From: Candidatus Bathycorpusculum sp.
Lineage (GTDB): Archaea; Thermoproteota; Bathyarchaeia; Bathyarchaeales; Bathycorpusculaceae
Assembly (NCBI GenBank): GCA_009778385.1
Contig: WRJX01000103.1
Span: 1-64,000 of the forward strand
Direction: 5' to 3'
Length of the DNA stretch: 64,000 nucleotides
Positions 14,225 through 37,133 of the stretch are shown here, piece after piece. Every line of letters starts with the position of its first letter. The stretch's first letter is position 1. A program made the translations under genes and the position numbers. Under the pieces are notes generated by a model that made no database searches, was not told where the DNA came from, and worked only from the letters and a program-made list of their open reading frames with translations.

Positions 14225-14560
14225 TTATTTTTTATAAGGATGATGGTGCAACTGTTTTTGTTGCTCTGCTTGCTGTTGAATTTTTATCTTTGCAAGTTGT
14301 GCTGCAAGCTTTAGAATAATTTGCTCTTTTGGCTCATTTTTCTCTACTGTGAGCATGCCCATTTTTGACCAAGGTGTTTTAGGATAGCCAGCGGTTGGGT
14401 TAATGTCGTTTTGTAAGCCAAGATTATCAGCGGCCTCTTTGATTTCTAAAATTTTAGGGCTAATGACTGCCATATTTTTGGGAACACGTCTGCCTTCACT
14501 TTTACTTTTTGCAACATCAAAGTAAACCGGCCAAATTATTGCGTTATCAGATTTTCGCAT
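14225..14560 (-). CDS. srp19: Signal recognition particle protein SRP19
   Basis: 111 residues matching archaeal SRP19: NAIIWPVYFDVAKSKSEGRRVPKNMAV is the RNA-binding first half, and AADNLGLQNDINPTAGYPKTPWSKMGMLTVE the second. SRP19 clamps helices 6 and 8 of 7S RNA so that SRP54 can bind and target membrane proteins. The C-terminal tail is unusually Gln/His-rich (QQQAEQQKQLHHHPYKK), probably disordered. It lies 14 bp downstream of gltX, probably in its operon. The partner 7S RNA was not found in this window. Confidence 0.93.
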   Translation of the reverse strand: MRKSDNAIIWPVYFDVAKSKSEGRRVPKNMAVISPKILEIKEAADNLGLQNDINPTAGYPKTPWSKMGMLTVEKNEPKEQIILKLAAQLAKIKIQQQAEQQKQLHHHPYKK

Positions 14561-14574
14561 TCTATTCTTTCTCC

Positions 14575-16359
14575 TTATTTATGTGCATAGTAAGCTACCA
14601 TTTTCTGGTTAACTTCATTCACGCGTGTAAACCCAAACCGTTCAAACTGTATAATCACATCTGGCTTTAATTTTTTGCTTTCATTTTCAGCAAACCCCGT
14701 CACTGTTTGAGCGTTTTGTAATATGACTTCACAGAAAAACTCTGTACCTTTTGGAATCCATTGAATAAGTTGAGCCTTGATTTTTCTTACATCTTCATAG
14801 TTTTCGCTGAAATATTTGGCTTCAACAGCCATCAGTTTAGATTCAACAGCATCGATGGTTGCTTGTTTGTCAACTTTTGTGATTTCTACGTTGAAGAGTT
14901 CCATGAGCCTAATTATTTTGCCTTGTTCTATGTTCATTGCGTCTTTTTTAGGAATCCAAAAACTTGTTGGTGTACCGTCTTTGTTTGGTGTGATTGTGTA
15001 TTCTCGGAAACCGCTCTCTGGTTTTTCAGGATGCAATGGCAATTTTGAAGTGAACCCTTTGGGTATCCCGTTAACTTTAAGCTCAATAGGATCTGGCACA
15101 AAAAAGTATCTGTTACTTGAGGCATCTAAAATTTTACGGTTATATGCATATAGATTCTCCCAGCTTAACGTTACATCATTAGGTTTTATTCCAACATCAA
15201 TAATCATTTTTTTGATGGCTTCAGGGGTGATTCCACGCTTACGCAAAGCAGCAAAGGTGCCAAGACGTGGGTCATCAAATCCTGCGTATGTTCCATCTTT
15301 AACGCCTGCAATAATTTTAGATTTACTCAAAAACGCATCTGTGATTTTAAGTCTGCCGTAATGAATTGCTTCAGGATATTCCCATCCAAGGGCTTGATAC
15401 ATGTATTTTTGACGTATCATATTTGTGTAGTGTTCTTTGCCCCGGATAATATGTGTCATGCCCATTAAGTGGTCATCTATACCTGCCGCCAAATTGTAAA
15501 GTGGCCAAAGAATATATTTGCTACCTACACGAGGATGCGGATACTTTTTAGTATCTACAATACGTAACGCTGGCCAATCGCGGACCGCTGGGTTGGGATG
15601 ATCAAGCTCTGTTTTTACACGTACAACTGCTTGTCCCTCATTGTAACCGCCGTTTACCATTTTGTGCCAACGTTCAAGCTGCTCTGTGAGAGACAAGTCG
15701 CGGCATGGACAGGCTTGTCTTGATAAGGATATTTTATGAAAAACTTCCTGTTTACATTCACAAACATAAGCTGCACCTGCTGCAACTAGTTTTTCTACGT
15801 ACTCATAGTAAATTGGAAGTCTGTCACTTTGGATATATTCTTCATCTACATGCACACCGAGCCATTTGAGATCTTTGCGTATGCTCTCATAAAATTCTAA
15901 GGCGGGTTTTTTGATTTTAGGATCAGTGTCTTCAAAGCGAAGAATAAATTTACCATTATGCATGCGTGCGTATTCATGACTAAGTATAATTGCTCTAGCA
16001 CTGCCAAGATGTAGTACGCAATCAGGGTTAGGCGAAAATCTTGTAACAATCTGCTTAAACTTGTTTGCATTAGGCAATGTGGGAAGTTTTTTTTCTTCAA
16101 CTTTTTCTTTCTTTTGAGTTTCAGGCCAATTTTGCTCCACAATAGACCTCTGCTCAGATAGTGAGTAGCTGTTAACCTCATTAACTACGCTATTAATTAC
16201 CACAGAAAGCTCCTTAACGCATGATCGCAAATCCTGTCTTTCTCCAAGAACCTTTCCAACCATTGCGCCTGCCTGCGCTTTACCATCATGCGAAATCGCG
16301 TTAAGCAACGCTGCCTTTCGTATTAACTCTCTAAGGTCTTTATCTTGTTCAAGTGCCAA
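14575..16359 (-). CDS. gltX: Glutamyl-tRNA synthetase, archaeal type
   Basis: 594 residues, class I. The HIGH motif is present as HLGS (117-120, in NPDCVLHLGSARAIIL) and KMSKS as LSKSK in ITDAFLSKSKIIAG. The C-terminal half is the beta-barrel anticodon domain of archaeal/eukaryal GlxRS (CEVILQNAQTVTGFAENESKKLKPDVIIQFERFGFTRV, read in parts), not the bacterial helical cage. It charges tRNA-Glu and, where GatDE is present as here, presumably also tRNA-Gln with glutamate. It sits between SRP19 and the prenyl synthase gene with only 22 bp on the isoprenoid side, so it may share transcripts with that block. Confidence 0.97.
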   Translation of the reverse strand: MALEQDKDLRELIRKAALLNAISHDGKAQAGAMVGKVLGERQDLRSCVKELSVVINSVVNEVNSYSLSEQRSIVEQNWPETQKKEKVEEKKLPTLPNANKFKQIVTRFSPNPDCVLHLGSARAIILSHEYARMHNGKFILRFEDTDPKIKKPALEFYESIRKDLKWLGVHVDEEYIQSDRLPIYYEYVEKLVAAGAAYVCECKQEVFHKISLSRQACPCRDLSLTEQLERWHKMVNGGYNEGQAVVRVKTELDHPNPAVRDWPALRIVDTKKYPHPRVGSKYILWPLYNLAAGIDDHLMGMTHIIRGKEHYTNMIRQKYMYQALGWEYPEAIHYGRLKITDAFLSKSKIIAGVKDGTYAGFDDPRLGTFAALRKRGITPEAIKKMIIDVGIKPNDVTLSWENLYAYNRKILDASSNRYFFVPDPIELKVNGIPKGFTSKLPLHPEKPESGFREYTITPNKDGTPTSFWIPKKDAMNIEQGKIIRLMELFNVEITKVDKQATIDAVESKLMAVEAKYFSENYEDVRKIKAQLIQWIPKGTEFFCEVILQNAQTVTGFAENESKKLKPDVIIQFERFGFTRVNEVNQKMVAYYAHK

Positions 16360-16381: not shown

Positions 16382-17452
16382 TTACATGTTGCGTTTAATC
16401 AAGAATTCGGAGAACGCTTTTAATTTTTCCTTAGCCTCTGGCGTAGGCAGTAGACGATCTACTTCATTCCAACTGTCAGCCACAATTTTTTCTGCCATAT
16501 GCATAGTATGTTCGATAGCGTGGTATTTTTGCATAAGCGCAATTGCTTCGTCACGGAGTTTCTGATCGTTGGTGTGCATGTTAAGAATTTCAATAAGACG
16601 CTTTTTATCTGCTTCATTTGCGTTTTTAAGCGTATAGATAACCATTAACGTACGTTTACCCTCTGTAATATCTTGGCCAACACCACCTTTCTTTTTAGCA
16701 AACTCTTGACCCGTCAAATCTAAAACGTCATCCTGCATCTGAAACGCAACACCTATACTTTCAGCAAATTTGCCAAGCTTATCAACAAGCGATTTTTCTA
16801 CACCTGAAAAAACTGCCGCCATTTTTGCTGCCATACGCGCTAAGGTACCTGTTTTGTATGCACACATCTGCAGGTAATCATATTCACTAATATTGTCAGC
16901 GTTTGCTAAACTACGGTGCCACGTAATATCCATGGCTTGACCCATGCTAAGATTAATCATTTCCTGCACATAAACCTCATAAACGCCACAAAGTATCTCT
17001 GCAGGCAAATTAACTTCTTTACCCATTAAGGCTAACAAGGGCATATAGTACATGGCGTTACCAACGTTAACGGCAATATCTAACCCATACAGTTTGTAGG
17101 TGCATGGTTTTCCTCGTCGTAACTCCGAGGTGTCTTCAATGTCATCGATGACAAGGGTGCCGTTGTGGATAACTTCAGGGATAACTGAAAAGTCTACACA
17201 GTAATCTTCTTTTTTGCCTAACGCTTCACAGATGAGCAGAAACAAGGCTGGCCGCCAACGTTTTCCACCCCTATCTAGTATATCCCAAGTTGGATCAGCT
17301 ATGGCTTTATCTAAAGTTTCCAAGTTATAACTATAAGCTGGTGGAGTAACTTGGAAAAGTATCGAATCTTTAGCGAATTTGCGTGGAATGTACTTTTCAA
17401 TAGCTTTATCAATTAACGGTGCTTTTTCTTCAAGAAATTTTCCGATATCCAA
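16382..17452 (-). CDS. idsA: Long-chain (geranylgeranyl-type) prenyl diphosphate synthase
   Basis: 356 residues, all-helical trans-prenyltransferase. GGKRWRP (62-68) binds the substrate diphosphate. The first Asp-rich motif is DDIED (103-107) and the second DDVLD (241-245), both complete. It condenses DMAPP with IPP units to C15-C20 or longer chains, the alkyl source of archaeal ether lipids. Exact chain length cannot be fixed by eye. It starts 4 nt after the IDI-2 stop, so the gene order idi2-idsA puts isomerase and chain synthesis in one transcript. It is the last isoprenoid gene of the block. Confidence 0.94.
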   Translation of the reverse strand: MDIGKFLEEKAPLIDKAIEKYIPRKFAKDSILFQVTPPAYSYNLETLDKAIADPTWDILDRGGKRWRPALFLLICEALGKKEDYCVDFSVIPEVIHNGTLVIDDIEDTSELRRGKPCTYKLYGLDIAVNVGNAMYYMPLLALMGKEVNLPAEILCGVYEVYVQEMINLSMGQAMDITWHRSLANADNISEYDYLQMCAYKTGTLARMAAKMAAVFSGVEKSLVDKLGKFAESIGVAFQMQDDVLDLTGQEFAKKKGGVGQDITEGKRTLMVIYTLKNANEADKKRLIEILNMHTNDQKLRDEAIALMQKYHAIEHTMHMAEKIVADSWNEVDRLLPTPEAKEKLKAFSEFLIKRNM

Positions 17453-17455
17453 GCG

Positions 17456-18541
17456 TTAACATACTCCTCTACGTGCATATCCTTCTATGTTGAAACCTCT
17501 TATTTTTAACCACTCCGCAGTTTCACGGCATATAACCAATGGAGTTTTAGCTAAATCTGCAACATTTTCTGCGCCAACAAGAAACAGGACGTTTTTCAAC
17601 TCATCTATTAAGCCTAAGAGCAGTTGTTCTGTTTCTTTGCTGCCTTTAACAGCTGTTTCCAGCGCAGGTTGAGTTATGCTTGCCAAATTAGCACCCAATG
17701 CTAATGCCTTTGCAATGTCTGTTCCAGTGCGGACGCCACCTGAAGCAATTACTGGTAACTTTGTAGACTGTACAACCTCCACGATACTTGCCGCAGTTGG
17801 AATGCCCCAGTCCCAAAATGCTTCACCTAATGTTTTTTCTCCTCGATAGTATTCTACCGCAGCGAAACTTGTTCCACCCACACCGCCAACATCAATGGCT
17901 TTTACACCTGCCTCTTTGAGCACTTTAGCGTCTTCAGCTGAGATACCTGCACCTGTTTCTTTTATGATTACCGGCTTGTCTAATTCACCTGCAACTTCAC
18001 CGACTTTTGCTAAGACACCTTTAAAGTTAGTTTGTCCTTCTGGCTGAACGGCTTCTTGCAGTGCGTTAAGGTGGATTGCAACTGCATCTGCGTCTATCAT
18101 TTCGATGACTTTTCGGGCTTCTTTTATTCCATAACCATGGACAAGCTGAACGCCTCCGATGTTAGCAATCAAAAAAGCATTTGGTGCAGCTTTACGTGCG
18201 ACCGTATAGGTCTTTTCAAGTGTATAGTTTTCGATGGCTGCCCTTTGGCTCCCCAAACCCATGCCTAAACCAAGTTTTTCAACAGCCTCTGCGATGTTCT
18301 GGTTAATTCTGATAGCTTCTTCTGTACCGCCGGTCATGGCACCAACAATTAAGGGTGCAGAAAAAGTTTTATTTAAAAAGGAAGTTGAAAGGTTTATGTC
18401 CTTTCGGTTAACTTCTGGCAGGGCACGGTGTACAAACCGTATGTCCTCAAACCCTGCTGTCACGGTTTTTGCTTGTGCTTTCTTTTCAAGGCAGATTCTA
18501 ATATGTTCTGCCTTTCTTTTCTCAGTTTTCTCTGCAGCCAT
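17456..18541 (-). CDS. fni: Isopentenyl-diphosphate isomerase, type 2 (FMN)
   Basis: 361 residues with the TIM-barrel IDI-2 pattern. RKAEHIRICLEK is the N-terminal substrate arm, SAPLIVGAMTGGT and GLGSQRAAIE line the FMN site, and HLNALQEAVQPEGQTNF is the conserved HLN.xQE..xPEG signature. VGGVGGTSFAAVE and ASGGVRTGTDIAKALALGA bind the FMN phosphate. It interconverts IPP and DMAPP using reduced FMN. It sits 1 nt after the kinase gene (IPK), which produces its substrate, so the three genes ipk-fni-idsA act consecutively. Confidence 0.96.
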   Translation of the reverse strand: MAAEKTEKRKAEHIRICLEKKAQAKTVTAGFEDIRFVHRALPEVNRKDINLSTSFLNKTFSAPLIVGAMTGGTEEAIRINQNIAEAVEKLGLGMGLGSQRAAIENYTLEKTYTVARKAAPNAFLIANIGGVQLVHGYGIKEARKVIEMIDADAVAIHLNALQEAVQPEGQTNFKGVLAKVGEVAGELDKPVIIKETGAGISAEDAKVLKEAGVKAIDVGGVGGTSFAAVEYYRGEKTLGEAFWDWGIPTAASIVEVVQSTKLPVIASGGVRTGTDIAKALALGANLASITQPALETAVKGSKETEQLLLGLIDELKNVLFLVGAENVADLAKTPLVICRETAEWLKIRGFNIEGYARRGVC

Positions 18542-18542
18542 C

Positions 18543-19346
18543 TTACGTCTTCTCTATTACAGTGCCTAACACACTTTGACCTGTTAAGGCTCTGTAAATA
18601 GATAAGCTTTTTGTGGCTCCAGTAACCGTGACGGGTATGCCTGCTTCAACGGCTGGGATAAGTTCAGCGATTTTTCCTGCCATACCGCCTGTAACGTCGG
18701 TTCCAGCTGCTTTTCCAAGTTTAGGCTGCAACGCTTTGAGTTCTGTAAGGTTTAAATGCTTTATTGGTTTGGCTTCTGGGTTTGTTTTTGGATCTGCTTC
18801 AAATATGCCGTCAGTGTCAACGCCAACAACGATTTTTTCAGCATTATACTTTAGTGCAAGATACGTAACAAGTTGGTCGCCGCTAAGAATGGTAAAGCCA
18901 AGTTTTTCATCCATAACTGCATCGCCATACAGTACTGGTGTAAAGATTAATTTACTCATGGCTTTAAGGGCTGTTTCGTCAAAGGTTTTGACTTTGCCAT
19001 TTTCTGTTACCATACAATTTGCTGGTGCAACACTAACTGCTGGAATTTCATGCCAAATAAGTGCATCCATAACTAGACCGTTAAGGACAGTCATCATGTG
19101 GTGGGTTTCAGCGTAACCAAACTTTTGTGTAGGGTCTTCTTTGTATCCGTCTTTTATGCCATACTTTGCAGCTGTTGGGTGACCAAAGCTGCCGCCCCCG
19201 TGAACTATAATTAAATTGTCAAGGTCGGCACGTTTGATTTCTTCAGCTAAACGGTTGATTATCTCGTTTTTCGGAATTGCCTCCGTGGTTTTATCAGTGA
19301 TTGCTGAGCCACCAAGTTTAAGGATGATAGGTCGTGCATCGTTCAT
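18543..19346 (-). CDS. ipk: Isopentenyl phosphate kinase
   Basis: 267 residues of the amino-acid-kinase fold. KLGGSAIT (10-17) binds ATP phosphates and HGGGSFGH (49-56) contains the His that distinguishes isopentenyl phosphate kinases from other family members and contacts the phosphate. DGIFEADPKTNPEA and DVTGGMAGKI complete the nucleotide site. It phosphorylates isopentenyl phosphate to IPP, the step needed when decarboxylation precedes the second phosphorylation, exactly the route encoded further upstream. First gene of ipk-fni-idsA; its promoter lies in the 298-bp spacer at 19347-19644. Confidence 0.95.
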   Translation of the reverse strand: MNDARPIILKLGGSAITDKTTEAIPKNEIINRLAEEIKRADLDNLIIVHGGGSFGHPTAAKYGIKDGYKEDPTQKFGYAETHHMMTVLNGLVMDALIWHEIPAVSVAPANCMVTENGKVKTFDETALKAMSKLIFTPVLYGDAVMDEKLGFTILSGDQLVTYLALKYNAEKIVVGVDTDGIFEADPKTNPEAKPIKHLNLTELKALQPKLGKAAGTDVTGGMAGKIAELIPAVEAGIPVTVTGATKSLSIYRALTGQSVLGTVIEKT

Positions 19347-19644
19347 TTGTAATCATTACCGTCTAATCTAAATTCAATACACTTAATTAATTTTACAGTA
19401 GCTACAGCCTAAGCGCTATGCATCTACGTTCTATTTGCCCTTGTTTTTTGTATACACCTGCCTTATTCTTGTCTTTAACATGTCGGTGTCATGCCTCTAA
19501 CATGTTAAATTATTTATTTTATAGCGAATAGATATGCCCCTACAGACTTCTGCATATAATCCATAGTTGAAGGGACTGGTTAAAAGTAAATCTATATTGT
19601 TTTAACAATCAACTAAATTTTTCAATAAGCCTAAAAAAGAAAAA
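19347..19644. other. Spacer inside the mevalonate block
   Basis: About 300 bp separates the ipk operon from the dehydratase small-subunit gene. It must contain the leftward promoter of ipk (AT-rich around 19370-19400). A pair of CATGTTAAA/ACATGTCGG-like words around 19480-19510 is not clearly structured. I see no gene here. Confidence 0.4.
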
Positions 19645-20031
19645 TTAGAAAAGATTTACGTTCTCATTTTCAATGATGATTTTATTGCCTGTCTTGATTT
19701 TTGTTACGTCCACTTTGTCTACGAATGGAATTTCGCTAATAATGGCACCGACTGCAACGATGGTTTCAGTTTCCTTGTTTATCATGCCTATGGGTGCGGT
19801 GCCATTTTTCTTCATACGGTATAATGTGTAGCTACCAACGGTACTGCCTTTGCCCTGCGGAAATACGAGAATTTTACCTTTGATGTTTACTCCTTCTAAT
19901 TCATGACCTTTTTCAAGTACAATACCTGTGTTAGGATCAACGCCGCCATAGAAACTAATTGGCATACTAGTGACGAGTGCTTCGCCTTCGACTTTTCCTT
20001 TGTAGATTATTCTTCCTTTTAATTGTTCCAT
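19645..20031 (-). CDS. Phosphomevalonate dehydratase small subunit (aconitase X swivel domain)
   Basis: 128 residues of the AcnX small-subunit family (formerly DUF126): GRIIYKGKVEGEALVTSMPISFYGGVDPNTG, LEGVNIKGKILVFPQGKGSTVGSYTLYRMKKNGTAP and a C-terminal IPFVDKVDVTKIKTG. This swivelling beta/alpha domain closes over the large subunit's iron-sulfur site. The pair dehydrates mevalonate 5-phosphate to trans-anhydromevalonate 5-phosphate in the archaeal mevalonate pathway (established in Aeropyrum pernix). The ATG overlaps the end of the large-subunit gene by 13 nt, so the subunits are translated together. The pathway context supports this function over other AcnX roles such as hydroxyproline metabolism. 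Confidence 0.92.
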   Translation of the reverse strand: MEQLKGRIIYKGKVEGEALVTSMPISFYGGVDPNTGIVLEKGHELEGVNIKGKILVFPQGKGSTVGSYTLYRMKKNGTAPIGMINKETETIVAVGAIISEIPFVDKVDVTKIKTGNKIIIENENVNLF

Positions 20032-21218
20032 TTTCCACTCACCGCTGCTTCAATACATTCTTTCATGCTGCCCATCTTGGTTTTCATAAGATTCTGTCTT
20101 GAATAGAAGCAACCCTTAGCTGATGTGGTTGCTAACGCTTTAAATCTGCCTTTCAGTGGAGCAACTGCCATGCAGGTATCACATGCAAATTTGCCCCCCG
20201 CTGCCTCAATAATTGCCGTGTAGCCACGTTTATCTGCAAGATGCTTAACTGTTCTAGATGTTGCAACCCATAACTCTGTGTTTTCTTTAACTTTTTTACC
20301 CTGAATTAAGTCTGCGATTTCTTGAATTTCTTTAATTGAACAATGGGGACAACCGACACAGACAAAATCAATTTCATCAGCATTATCATTGATGTTGTCA
20401 TAAGCGTTTTTAATGTCACCAGTTTCAATTGTCACTGTTTCTTTGGGCTGGATTTGCAGATCTGCACCCGGTGTTATGCCTTTTATGTAGAATAAGGGTT
20501 TAGTACCGTAAGTGACTGTTGAGGCGCAAAAGCTTTTAAGTTCATCAAGATGTGCTGCCTTTATACCTGTTATATATGGAATTTTGTTTTCAGCTTTCTT
20601 GCCTATCGCGTAACCTAATGCTCCCCAGTCAGACAATTTGGAAAGTTCTGCTTCAACTTGAACATGCACCTCTGGAATACGGTTTTCGTCAAGATGCAAA
20701 CCATAGCAGGGAGTTTTGCCGACAAACGCTGCCGCCAAAGCTGATGGCCCACCTTCCCTGTTTGTGCGTGCGCCCAAAACAGAGTTAGCAAACGTTACTG
20801 CACTACTTTCTGACCATGCAATATGTTCACCATACAGGGGAAGATTGCCAATGAGGTAGGGTGTACAGGTACAGCTAACAAGTATGCCCATGCGTTGAAA
20901 AGCATCAATAACAAGATTCTGTTTTTCTGCAAATTCTGCAGTGATGCCAAGTTGCTGCCAGTTTTCAAGATCCATACCTGCAGGGTTAAGTGTAGTTAAA
21001 ACCTTGACTTTGCCATCTTTTGATAGTGAATCTAAAAATTCCAGTCCAGCATCACCCAAATTATGATAAGAAACACCTGAAACTTGGACACTGCCAACAT
21101 CAATTAAGTTCTTTGCACCAAAAATTTCGCCAAGAGCAACTAGGATTTCCATGCTTTTACGTACAGCATAGCCTTCCTTGCCGTCTAGCATTGCTTGTTC
21201 TTGCTTAGTTAACTCCAT
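20019..21218 (-). CDS. Phosphomevalonate dehydratase large subunit (aconitase X)
   Basis: 399 residues of the AcnX large-subunit family. Cysteines available for the Fe-S cluster are CTCTP (C116, C118), CVGCPHC (C287, C290, C293), CDTC (C346, C349) and C370. ATSRTVKHLADKRGY and FYSRQN carry basic residues that can hold the substrate phosphate. Together with the overlapping small subunit it removes water from mevalonate 5-phosphate. The UbiD-type decarboxylase gene lies 11 bp upstream and would use its product. Some AcnX proteins act on hydroxyproline derivatives, but neighbours mvk, decarboxylase and ipk make the mevalonate role by far the best reading. Confidence 0.94.
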   Translation of the reverse strand: MELTKQEQAMLDGKEGYAVRKSMEILVALGEIFGAKNLIDVGSVQVSGVSYHNLGDAGLEFLDSLSKDGKVKVLTTLNPAGMDLENWQQLGITAEFAEKQNLVIDAFQRMGILVSCTCTPYLIGNLPLYGEHIAWSESSAVTFANSVLGARTNREGGPSALAAAFVGKTPCYGLHLDENRIPEVHVQVEAELSKLSDWGALGYAIGKKAENKIPYITGIKAAHLDELKSFCASTVTYGTKPLFYIKGITPGADLQIQPKETVTIETGDIKNAYDNINDNADEIDFVCVGCPHCSIKEIQEIADLIQGKKVKENTELWVATSRTVKHLADKRGYTAIIEAAGGKFACDTCMAVAPLKGRFKALATTSAKGCFYSRQNLMKTKMGSMKECIEAAVSGKWNN

Positions 21219-21229
21219 AACTAATCACG

Positions 21230-22549
21230 TTACATGTACTTGTTTAAGTCAATTTTGATGTAGTCTTCTTTTTTGAAGCCCTTACCCGTAGTTACAATTG
21301 GAATTGTTGCATCAACACCGGCTTTAGCGGTTGTAGCTTTTTTACCTTCAGAGAGATCACCTGAAGGGTCAAGGCTTGAACCCGACTGATTTGATAGCAC
21401 TATTAGATTTTTGTCAGCTTGGAACCGAGTGGCAATTGCCCATTCAACATCATGAGGATCGTAAATGTTAATGTCCTCATCTACAACAACCACGTGCTTT
21501 AAGGATTTATGTCCTTCAAAAGCGGCAAGAATAGCTTTCCTCCCATCATCTGCGTGAGTCTTGTGAATTTGCACTACTGCGTGTAACCAACTACAGCCCC
21601 CTGGGGTAATGTAGACATCTCTGCATTGGCACACTTTGTTAACTTCATTGTAAATTGTGGGTTCTTTAGGCATACCCATCAAAAATTTGTGTTCGTTCTT
21701 ACCTGCTAAGATGGTTTGATAGATCGGGTTCTTGCGGTGAGTTACACATTTAATTTCGATTACCGGTTGTTGACGTACCCGGTCAACTACGCCTGTTAAA
21801 TCAAGAAATGGTCCCTCAGTGGCTTTTTCCCTGGTGATTCTTCCCTCAAAAACAAATTCTGCTTCTGCTGGAACTTCAAGATCAACAGTTTTGCATTTGA
21901 CAATGTCTGTTCTTTCAAGAGCGTTAGCCATGCCTAATTCATCAACGCCTGTTGGAAGCGAAGTGGCTGCTGCAAGAAGCACCGCAGTTGAGTTGCCTAC
22001 ACATATGGCTATGTCAAGCTCTCCATCTGATGCTTTTTTTAATGCGCTGTCAGTTCCACGGTTTTCGACTATACGGGCGATAAAATGATTTTTATCTTTA
22101 AGCATGAGGCGATGGAAGCACATGTTTCGGTGACCTGTTTGAGGGTCTTTAATGATAGAAACCGCTGAGGCAATATATTTTCCGCCGTCTTTATCTGTAT
22201 AATGCATAATTGGCAGTTTAGTTAAGTCAACGTCTGAGCCTATGTGTACAACTTCTTGGCAAACCGCGTTTTCTACAAGTTTTGGCTCAACCGGTTTTTC
22301 AATAGCTAAGGAAAGCTTCGGTAATAATTGCTCTTTTGTTATACCCAGTGAACGGCAAATCAGCTCTTTAGAAGAAACCAAACCTGAAACAACTGGAACA
22401 GTGGATTCTTTGATGTTCTCAAAAAAGACTGGTTTCTCACTTAACGCATTGATTATGCCTGCCAGCTCATACTCTGTGGAGACTGGTTTTGTAATCTTTG
22501 TTAATTCACCACTTTTTTGAAGTGACTCAATGAAAGTTCTTAAACCCAA
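21230..22549 (-). CDS. UbiD-family anhydromevalonate phosphate decarboxylase
   Basis: 439 residues, full-length UbiD fold. LRTFIESLQKSGELTKI is the N-terminal flavin-side domain. YIASAVSIIKDPQTGHRNMCFHRLML, then EGPFLDLTGVVD (containing the conserved E..P.....G catalytic region), and DVEWAIATRFQADKNL form the catalytic face. UbiD enzymes use prenylated FMN, made by UbiX, and no ubiX lies in this window. By context it converts trans-anhydromevalonate phosphate to isopentenyl phosphate, directly upstream of the dehydratase genes and in the same direction. UbiD paralogues also serve ubiquinone or aromatic acids, but the operon argues against that. Confidence 0.92.
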   Translation of the reverse strand: MGLRTFIESLQKSGELTKITKPVSTEYELAGIINALSEKPVFFENIKESTVPVVSGLVSSKELICRSLGITKEQLLPKLSLAIEKPVEPKLVENAVCQEVVHIGSDVDLTKLPIMHYTDKDGGKYIASAVSIIKDPQTGHRNMCFHRLMLKDKNHFIARIVENRGTDSALKKASDGELDIAICVGNSTAVLLAAATSLPTGVDELGMANALERTDIVKCKTVDLEVPAEAEFVFEGRITREKATEGPFLDLTGVVDRVRQQPVIEIKCVTHRKNPIYQTILAGKNEHKFLMGMPKEPTIYNEVNKVCQCRDVYITPGGCSWLHAVVQIHKTHADDGRKAILAAFEGHKSLKHVVVVDEDINIYDPHDVEWAIATRFQADKNLIVLSNQSGSSLDPSGDLSEGKKATTAKAGVDATIPIVTTGKGFKKEDYIKIDLNKYM

Positions 22550-22731
22550 ATTCTTTCGCCTTGAAAATAAAAATATCCAGTAGTTCCCGTTTATAGCTTT
22601 TGGAGAACTATCATGTTTTCAGTTTTTAGGTAGTGGATATGCCAGGTTAACTATATGAAATAAAAAGCAATGAACTTTCAAGAAAACCAAGTACAATAAA
22701 AAGAAAGAAGCTTCTGCTTCTTTTGTCTAAC

Positions 22732-23673
22732 TTAGTGGGTTATAGCACCGATTTTGGTAGCTAAGAATTCTAGGCCTTCTGTCTTAAATGCGTTGGCAAC
22801 TTTTTCTTGCAGCTCTTTGCTTGGGGTTAATGCAACCATACATCCTCCGCCTCCGCCGCCCGTAAGTTTAGCTCCGATGGCGCCCTGTTTACGTGCTATA
22901 TCGACAAGGTGATCAAGTTCTATGCTTGAAACGCCTATTTCTTGCAGAATTTTGTGATTTTCGTTCATGAGTTCGCCAACTTCTTTTAGGTTGCCTGCCT
23001 CAAGTGCCTTGCACCCTGCAGCTGCAAGGGCTTCTGCTTGATTGAACAGAGGGTCGTATTTGGTTGGGTTAGCTTTTTTGCGTTCAGCAACGCCTTCTAC
23101 CATGGCTTTGGTGTTGGCTACTTTACCTGTGCTGCCAATTACAATTTCAATTGGCTCTTGAATTTTTAGACGTTCAATGTGATCTTGTCCGCCTGCAGGG
23201 TTTTTCTTAAACAACATTAAACCGCCATACGTTGCTGCAGTATTATCTATGCCACTTGGATTGCCTGCATATGCGATTTCTGCTTCGTAAGCTATTTGAT
23301 TGATTCTTTCGTTAGAAAGACTTAGGTTAAATTCTTCATTGATGGCTCGCGCAATAGCAACACTGCTAGCTGCTGACGCGCCTAAGCCGCTAAAACCGGG
23401 TAGGCTTCCACCTATCCAGATATCAAGGGGCGTTTTAGGGTCGAGCTCCATGGCTTTTAGCATGCGCTCAATGGATTCAATTTGTTGGAGTCGTTTTTCT
23501 TCGCTATACCCCTTTGCGGTTTTACGTTCATCTTTAATTATAAGACCGTTTTTGGCTTTTGTTACTATGGCGTCTGTTGATGAGTCAATTGCTGAAACTA
23601 TTCCAGGCACTCCGTGGACTACGAAGTGTTCACCGAATAAGATTACTTTTCCGTAACCTGAACCTTTACCCAT
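22732..23673 (-). CDS. mvk: Mevalonate kinase
   Basis: 313 residues of the GHMP kinase family: VILFGEHFVVHGVPGI (motif 1), GSLPGFSGLGASAASSVAIARA (motif 2, ATP loop; read in parts), YAGNPSGIDNTAATYGG (mevalonate-kinase substrate segment) and KLTGGGGGGCMVAL (motif 3). It phosphorylates mevalonate at the 5-hydroxyl. The downstream decarboxylase and dehydratase genes follow on the same strand after a 182-bp gap that may hold a second promoter. No phosphomevalonate kinase or diphosphomevalonate decarboxylase gene is present, as expected for the archaeal route. Confidence 0.96.
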   Translation of the reverse strand: MGKGSGYGKVILFGEHFVVHGVPGIVSAIDSSTDAIVTKAKNGLIIKDERKTAKGYSEEKRLQQIESIERMLKAMELDPKTPLDIWIGGSLPGFSGLGASAASSVAIARAINEEFNLSLSNERINQIAYEAEIAYAGNPSGIDNTAATYGGLMLFKKNPAGGQDHIERLKIQEPIEIVIGSTGKVANTKAMVEGVAERKKANPTKYDPLFNQAEALAAAGCKALEAGNLKEVGELMNENHKILQEIGVSSIELDHLVDIARKQGAIGAKLTGGGGGGCMVALTPSKELQEKVANAFKTEGLEFLATKIGAITH

Positions 23674-23977
23674 TGTAAATTTTCACCTTTAAATGAAGCT
23701 ATTGAATTGTTTAGATAAAAACGTTCTTTATACATTACTTTCAAAAAACGTTTCATCTGCTTGATTTGACCTAATCTATATCGACTGATCTAGTTTGATG
23801 CCGTCTACTTTAGTTTTGATAGTGTATTTGCTACTTTAATTTATGTCAAGTTCACAACGTTGTTTAAGAGCGGTACTCTTAGATGGAAATGTTTCTCACT
23901 GCCTATATTTGGAGTATAAACCAGTTTTTGGAATCAAAAAACTTAAACAATACCCTGTAGACATTATCGGTGCTGGT

Positions 23978-24099
23978 GGCGGGGTATCCGAGCCAGGTCT
24001 AAATAGGTGGCCAGATACCAATTGCACCTAAGATATGGAGGAGGACTTAAGATCCTCTGGCGAAGGCCTTCGTGGGTTCAAGTCCCACCCCCGCCACCA
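23978..24099 (+). tRNA. tRNA-Leu(UAA) with an insertion in the D-loop, CCA encoded
   Basis: Acceptor GGCGGGG (23978-23984) pairs with CCCCGCC (24089-24095), discriminator A, encoded CCA at 24097-24099. Anticodon arm GAGGA-CTTAAGA-TCCTC (24041-24057) gives UAA, leucine. A long variable arm (24058-24071) fits a class II tRNA-Leu, and the T arm GTGGG-TTCAAGT-CCCAC is perfect. The D stem is TCC (23987-23989) with GGA (24037-24039). Between them are 47 nt instead of about 13-15. Removing about 33 nt leaves a normal tRNA of about 86 nt. Confidence 0.9.
24004..24036 (+). other. Probable tRNA intron in the D-loop
   Basis: The extra sequence folds on itself: TAGGTG (24004-24009) pairs with CACCTA (24025-24030) around a 15-nt loop, leaving a purine-rich AAGAT-like segment on the 3' side. 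Archaeal tRNA introns are excised at bulge-helix-bulge structures and can occur outside the anticodon loop. A strict 3-4-3 bulge-helix-bulge is not obvious to me, so the exact splice points are uncertain by a few bases. Confidence 0.6.
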
Positions 24100-24136
24100 C
24101 TTATAAGTAAAATCTTTATCATTAACCGATCAAAAT

Positions 24137-37032: not shown

Positions 37033-37133
37033 TTTATTTTATGCAATAGCAATCTGATGTAAAAATACAGGCGGATAAACATGTCCGCAGGGATGTGGCC
37101 GAAAGGCTGAACCATAAACAAATAATACATTAG
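37033..37133 (+). promoter_or_regulatory. L15e promoter and structured leader
   Basis: A TATA-like TTTATTTTA at 37033-37041 would start transcription near 37065. The resulting leader contains GCGGA (37071-37075)/TCCGC (37084-37088) and a GGCC-GAAA-GGCU hairpin (37097-37108) with a GNRA tetraloop, then AGGTG before the ATG of L15e. Two compact hairpins in front of an r-protein gene suggest possible autogenous control, which is inference. The remaining spacer from 36843 is AT-rich, with no gene. Confidence 0.4.

Follow-up and report, generated by a model that had tools for sequence, protein, structure and literature searches.

A predicted archaeal mevalonate gene block of apparently chimeric origin in Candidatus Bathycorpusculum, a genus in which UbiX was not found

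The mevalonate gene block

The window analysed here is a stretch of 64,000 nucleotides from Candidatus Bathycorpusculum sp. (contig WRJX01000103.1). Between positions 16382 and 23673 its minus strand carries seven intact genes predicted to act in isoprenoid synthesis: mvk, ubiD, acnX-L, acnX-S, ipk, idi2 and a prenyl synthase gene (Table 1). We consider it very likely that these genes encode the archaeal modified mevalonate route, that a cassette was exchanged at the position of the native mvk and that prenylated flavin mononucleotide (FMN), the presumed cofactor of the UbiD decarboxylase, is supplied without UbiX. The host genome (2.18 Mb in 105 contigs) is 97.7% complete. The AcnX large subunit of the window shares 89% identity with its counterparts in Candidatus Bathycorpusculum hydrogenotrophicum and B. 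termitum, and the B. hydrogenotrophicum sequence nests among genomes of the same genus in the AcnX tree. The genus, a gut- and sediment-type archaeon, forms part of the family Bathycorpusculaceae within Bathyarchaeia (PMC10684969).

Block proteins were assigned to families with Pfam and NCBIfam profiles and their curated cut-offs. These scores and the gene coordinates bear out the first-pass annotation, which had placed the seven genes on one strand in this interval. The start codon of ubiD reads as TTG, and acnX-S and acnX-L overlap by 13 bases. The prenyl synthase falls below every NCBIfam equivalog cut-off (best match IdsA_Meth, 208 bits) and its chain length is therefore left unassigned, its product probably being geranylgeranyl diphosphate.

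Table 1. Features of the mevalonate block and its downstream neighbours
Feature	Coordinates	Strand	Evidence or remark
mvk, mevalonate kinase; first gene of the cassette, foreign-type version	22732-23673	-	TIGR00549 244 bits (cut-off 163); tree and AU test
gap mvk/ubiD, 182 bases	22550-22731		relatives carry insertions at the same point
ubiD-type decarboxylase, predicted anhydromevalonate phosphate decarboxylase	21230-22549	-	PF01977 E 1.5e-62; TIGR00148 400 bits (cut-off 245)
acnX large subunit (acnX-L), predicted phosphomevalonate dehydratase	20019-21218	-	PF04412 E 1e-154
acnX small subunit (acnX-S), swivel domain	19645-20031	-	PF01989 E 7e-35
gap acnX-S/ipk, 298 bases, T-rich start	19347-19644		relatives carry insertions at the same point
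ipk, isopentenyl phosphate kinase, native	18543-19346	-	NF040647 245 bits (cut-off 120)
idi2, type 2 isopentenyl-diphosphate isomerase	17456-18541	-	TIGR02151 420 bits (cut-off 281)
polyprenyl diphosphate synthase	16382-17452	-	PF00348 E 3.7e-64, 217 bits
gltX, glutamyl-tRNA ligase	14575-16359	-	NF003169 749 bits; neighbour kept in native and chimeric operons
srp19	14225-14560	-	PF01922 E 2.1e-19; neighbour kept in native and chimeric operons

The two intergenic gaps contain no credible open reading frame; a hidden gene was considered and none was seen. Since relatives carry extra DNA at exactly these two ORF-free points, the block is probably organised in three transcription units: mvk; ubiD-acnXL-acnXS; and ipk-idi2-prenyl synthase-gltX-srp19. 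Downstream, an eS8 gene faces gltX and srp19.

A modified mevalonate pathway

Isoprenoid synthesis is essential for archaeal membranes. The gene content of the block points to the archaeal modified mevalonate pathway, itself already known. Mevalonate kinase (MVK) would convert mevalonate into mevalonate 5-phosphate, which AcnX-L/S, a predicted Fe-S dehydratase, would dehydrate to trans-anhydromevalonate 5-phosphate. Decarboxylation of the latter to isopentenyl phosphate would fall to the UbiD enzyme with prenylated FMN. Isopentenyl phosphate kinase (IPK) would then form isopentenyl diphosphate (IPP), the type 2 isomerase (IDI2) would turn IPP into dimethylallyl diphosphate and the prenyl synthase would elongate these units. 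MVK, a two-subunit AcnX, a UbiD-type decarboxylase, IPK and IDI2 are shared with the Aeropyrum-type pathway, whereas the genome of the window differs from it in that the downstream genes all lie in a single block and in that UbiX is lacking.

Neither a classical phosphomevalonate kinase nor a diphosphomevalonate decarboxylase was found in a survey of GHMP proteins across the host genome. The remaining GHMP kinases (homoserine kinase, shikimate kinase, beta-RFAP synthase and pantoate kinase) all belong to non-mevalonate families, which argues against a classical route. The pathway call of the first-pass annotation, including its lack of classical enzymes, is thus upheld genome-wide. A class II-like 3-hydroxy-3-methylglutaryl-CoA reductase (L008, C97:1151-2434; TIGR00532, 473 bits) was found elsewhere in the genome. 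In contigs of Lokiarchaeota and Diapherotrites (L117, L118, L121, L124, L132), related reductases adjoin the mevalonate cluster.

The AcnX large and small subunits are separate, overlapping genes (PF04412 and PF01989), as in phosphomevalonate dehydratase (AcnX type II). Alignment to the Thermococcus AcnX (7cnr) indicates that the cluster cysteines are kept (Tk C110/C283/C342 correspond to C118/C290/C349). The mevalonate-phosphate ligands, taken from the ligand-bound Thermococcus structure as described in PMC8184944, are also kept (Tk N53, N79, E129, S131, K361 and Y365 correspond to N53, N78, E137, S139, K368 and Y372). Two specificity positions differ: Tk A47 is replaced by S47 and the small-subunit residue following SF is Tyr, not Leu. 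The small subunit scores 141 bits against 7cnr chain B, with which it has the KGSTVGS motif in common. The Thermococcus protein was itself assigned by homology to the characterised Aeropyrum enzyme, the Thermococcus preparation being inactive (PMC8184944). A relationship to hydroxyproline enzymes, which would have spoken against the proposed function, is not seen: the large subunit scores 372 bits against the Thermococcus AcnX and 231 bits against hydroxyproline dehydratase, and it groups with archaeal AcnX, apart from hydroxyproline dehydratase, in a tree that includes one hydroxyproline enzyme on a long branch. A second, divergent AcnX pair accompanies the presumed mevalonate one in several Bathyarchaeia and relatives (L066, L067, L079; G016, G024, G130).

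The archaeal modified route has been called unique to archaea. Four Chloroflexota genomes, L115 (Ornatilinea apprima), L140, L156 and L158, carry an archaeal-type ubiD with acnX, and in L158, an Anaerolineae metagenome-assembled genome (MAG), mvk and ipk lie in the same row. Two Chloroflexota AcnX sequences nest inside an Asgard/DPANN clade. Of the Chloroflexota genomes tested for UbiX, L115, L140 and L156 have it and L146 does not.

Gene order in related archaea

Relatives are designated below by anonymous GTDB family groups (f1, f2 and so on, f1 being the family of the window), genera (g), genomes (G) and loci (L). The order mvk-ubiD-acnXL-acnXS-ipk-idi2-prenyl synthase-gltX is contiguous in 14 related loci (f1, f4, f5) and the block's gene order is shared by the named Bathycorpusculum MAGs L097 and L101; the arrangement is therefore not due to chance. 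A divergent prenyl synthase (31-33%) occurs in L070, L071 and L074, which belong to f4. Insertions interrupt the block in L051, L054 and L059, and its second half is not nearby in L055, L068 and L069.

The order mvk-ubiD-acnXL-acnXS is also frequent in Asgard, DPANN, Thermoplasmatota and Hadarchaeota contigs, some of which add ipk and idi2 (L112, L113, L125). The Asgard/DPANN clusters (L122, L128, L113, L125) resemble the window in gene order and carry related sequences; they differ in that the Bathyarchaeia ipk-idi2-prenyl synthase-gltX-srp19 unit does not follow and in that most of those genomes tested have UbiX. The first-pass annotation had regarded so compact an arrangement as unusual. 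This does not hold for clustering as such, since mevalonate pathway genes of archaea are usually clustered (PMC11052028) and the four-gene order recurs in other archaea; it stands only for the complete seven-gene block, which characterises certain Bathyarchaeia families. L130 (CP070835.1), a complete chromosome under the label Bathyarchaeota, has AcnX, UbiD and MVK that group with Lokiarchaeota, and this label is probably wrong.

A foreign cassette at the head of a native operon

Genera g2, g7 and g9 of the same family, together with f6, show the order mvk-ipk-idi2-prenyl synthase-gltX-srp19 and lack the cassette; two f2 loci keep the native order from mvk through gltX, with no srp19 match. 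In the sister genera acnX and ubiD are located elsewhere in the genome: in G276, for example, mvk-ipk lies on C2 at 34-36 kb, acnX on C1 at 1045 kb and ubiD on C1 at 1291 kb. This native operon (L302-L307) thus has the downstream genes and order of the window but differs in its mvk and in the location of acnX and ubiD.

The gene trees conflict with one another. Window-type mvk, ubiD and acnX group with DPANN, Asgard and euryarchaeal versions, whereas the window ipk groups with the sister genera (100/99 in the IPK tree). In approximately unbiased (AU) tests, placing the sequences of the order in one clade was rejected for AcnX-L (p 4e-6), MVK (p 4e-84) and UbiD (p 1e-49) and not rejected for IPK (p 0.163). 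The groups were chosen after the trees had been seen, so these p-values are somewhat flattering; the likelihood differences are large (87, 168 and 286 units).

The block thus appears, from trees and gene orders, to be a chimera of a foreign cassette and native genes, among which ipk would be vertically inherited. This goes beyond what the first-pass annotation had read from the locus and is newly described here. In the simplest account, a mvk-ubiD-acnXL-acnXS cassette of DPANN/Asgard/euryarchaeal affinity would have replaced the native mvk heading the mvk-ipk-idi2-prenyl synthase-gltX-srp19 operon, and the native acnX and ubiD, located elsewhere, would have been lost. We infer both the donor and the direction of transfer.

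A point against this account is that the nearest neighbours differ from gene to gene: those of UbiD are L111, an Aenigmatarchaeota sequence, and f32, while that of MVK is a Methanomicrobia MAG. Because the closest relatives of AcnX-L, UbiD and MVK differ, the cassette may have been assembled from several sources, or the pattern may reflect old paralogy with differential loss. Ancient paralogues of mvk, ubiD and acnX sorted by such loss, with no horizontal exchange, would be in line with the presence of two AcnX in some genomes (L065/L066; G293, G261); yet the second AcnX copies fall apart from the cassette version in the tree and the exchanged mvk occupies the original position next to a native ipk, so that we regard this explanation as improbable.

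A decarboxylase without UbiX

UbiD enzymes require prenylated FMN, and UbiX is, to our knowledge, the only enzyme that makes it. The one UbiX-superfamily protein (PF02441) of the host genome (C100), which is also the sole type present in the genus, is an AfpA and not a UbiX: it scores 231 bits against AfpA (TIGR02699) and 28 bits against UbiX (TIGR00421, cut-off 109). UbiX exceeded its cut-off in none of 32 genomes of the genus, and a permissive search confirmed this in the members that are 97-99% complete (G178, 99%; G305, 99%; G302, 97%). Nor do the genomes of the named species B. hydrogenotrophicum and B. termitum have one. The same search recovered UbiX in 190 of 300 genomes of the phylum and in 0 of 21 in the own-family sample. 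The phylum sample includes 216 genomes of at least 90% completeness that carry acnX; UbiX is lacking in 62 of them, compared with about 7 expected from incompleteness. The gap concerns all 21 such genomes of f1, 33 of 40 in the own order and all 11 of f34. These cross-counts were obtained by matching the acnX and UbiX genome lists, transcribed by hand.

An overlooked UbiX, hidden by assembly gaps or divergence, has in its favour that the window's genome is a draft MAG in 105 contigs. The genus-wide count, which includes the near-complete members, is difficult to explain in this way, and weak PF02441 matches of 190-206 amino acids in G000, G094, G136 and G325, considered as a divergent UbiX common to genomes without the canonical one, translate into adenylylsulfate-kinase-like P-loop proteins. 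We therefore judge a missed UbiX most improbable. No published report of the gap was found in the open-access literature, most subscription journals lying outside the search. It is real and unsolved, sits at the cofactor step and extends beyond the reading of the first-pass annotation. The lack of UbiX leaves two sources for prenylated FMN, an enzyme not yet recognised or an external supply.

Of the 31 genomes checked for UbiD, 29 lack UbiX, and every one of the 31 retains a UbiD, mostly in one copy. The genome of the window has a single UbiD gene, adjoined by acnX-L/S, an arrangement kept in relatives. UbiX directly adjoins ubiD and acnX in f10, f11 and f21/g33 and is nearby in f13; a related genus, f21/g87, has ubiD-acnXL-acnXS with no UbiX beside it. 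Aeropyrum pernix and Thermococcus kodakarensis possess a UbiX partner (PMC8184944).

The window UbiD keeps N142, R147, E235, E245 and D250, and thus the Glu-Arg-Glu/Asp network (R147, E245, D250; R173, E277, E282 in Fdc1). Its fold family and this network are those of the two-component UbiX-UbiD decarboxylases, from which the genome differs in lacking the UbiX partner. N142, R147, E245 and D250 are the same in operon-bearing relatives that possess UbiX. Since UbiX-bearing f4 has the same operon and a UbiD 71-73% identical to that of the window, the lineage of the window is unlikely to have switched to another enzyme chemistry.

More generally, a UbiD enzyme working without prenylated FMN in the UbiX-less lineages would fit the loss of the metal-ligand-like glutamate (E235 equivalent) in f34, f20, f24 and f18 (L250-L252, L260, L247-L249, L256). 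However, every checked residue is kept in the window and the genus, and Hadarchaeum lost the glutamate yet has UbiX. We hold such an enzyme to be very unlikely. Nor does the loss of this glutamate serve as a marker of UbiX loss, as the window and most UbiX-less lineages keep it.

Possible sources of prenylated FMN

We put forward tentatively, at somewhat less than even chances, that a second, so far undiscovered route to prenylated FMN exists: an enzyme with no relation to UbiX would supply the cofactor in Bathycorpusculum and in several further archaeal lineages whose isoprenoid synthesis runs through a UbiD decarboxylase. That such an as yet unrecognised synthase is encoded in these genomes themselves is a serious candidate, a little short of an even bet. 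It accords with the absence of UbiX from many lineages that have acnX and ubiD, near-complete genomes included, and with the retention of UbiD. Moreover, within the own order UbiX was lost in lineages with native UbiD and with foreign UbiD alike, which suggests a genome-wide cofactor supply. Against it, no candidate gene has emerged. The AfpA-like protein was rejected as a UbiX substitute: it exceeds the AfpA cut-off, f4 has it alongside UbiX, and it is missing from several lineages without UbiX. The superfamily as a whole is absent from several of the UbiX-less lineages. In f21/g87, no conserved replacement gene was seen at the position beside ubiD that UbiX has vacated.

Scavenging of the cofactor or a precursor from the community appears rather unlikely, although the CoaBC flavoprotein domain is likewise missing from members of the genus and from several other lineages without UbiX, in line with cofactor dependence. 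This (decarboxylase) domain was not found in the Bathycorpusculum genomes searched with PF02441 (G000 and genus members). No uptake system is known, however, and CoaBC is kept in the UbiX-less relatives G001, G297, G136, G112 and G062. Bathycorpusculum has a pantoate kinase and a CoaD-like gene (L007), and the f1 genera g2 and g9 have a CoaBC-sized protein.

Two points weigh against the interpretation as a whole: all genus members examined are apparently draft MAGs, and conserved UbiD residues are no proof that prenylated FMN is used.

Other features of the window

A tRNA-Leu(UAA)-like sequence with an encoded CCA and a disturbed or extended D-arm region lies at 23977-24100 (+). It was missed by ARAGORN and at the Rfam gathering threshold, and is possibly a tRNA with a non-canonical intron. 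At 37071-37118 (+), directly 5' of a probable eL15 gene, an eL15-Euryarchaeota ribosomal leader (45 bits) was detected in this Thermoproteota genome.

Implications

The chimeric operon would be a clear example of in-place exchange of a core lipid pathway among distantly related archaea. Prenylated FMN is the presumed cofactor of the decarboxylation step in archaeal isoprenoid synthesis. The presence of the dehydratase and the decarboxylase without UbiX, seen throughout one genus, in most of its order and in further lineages, constitutes a concrete gap. It implies either a new flavin prenyltransferase or a dependence on externally supplied cofactor, and such a dependence could bear on the difficulty of culturing these archaea.

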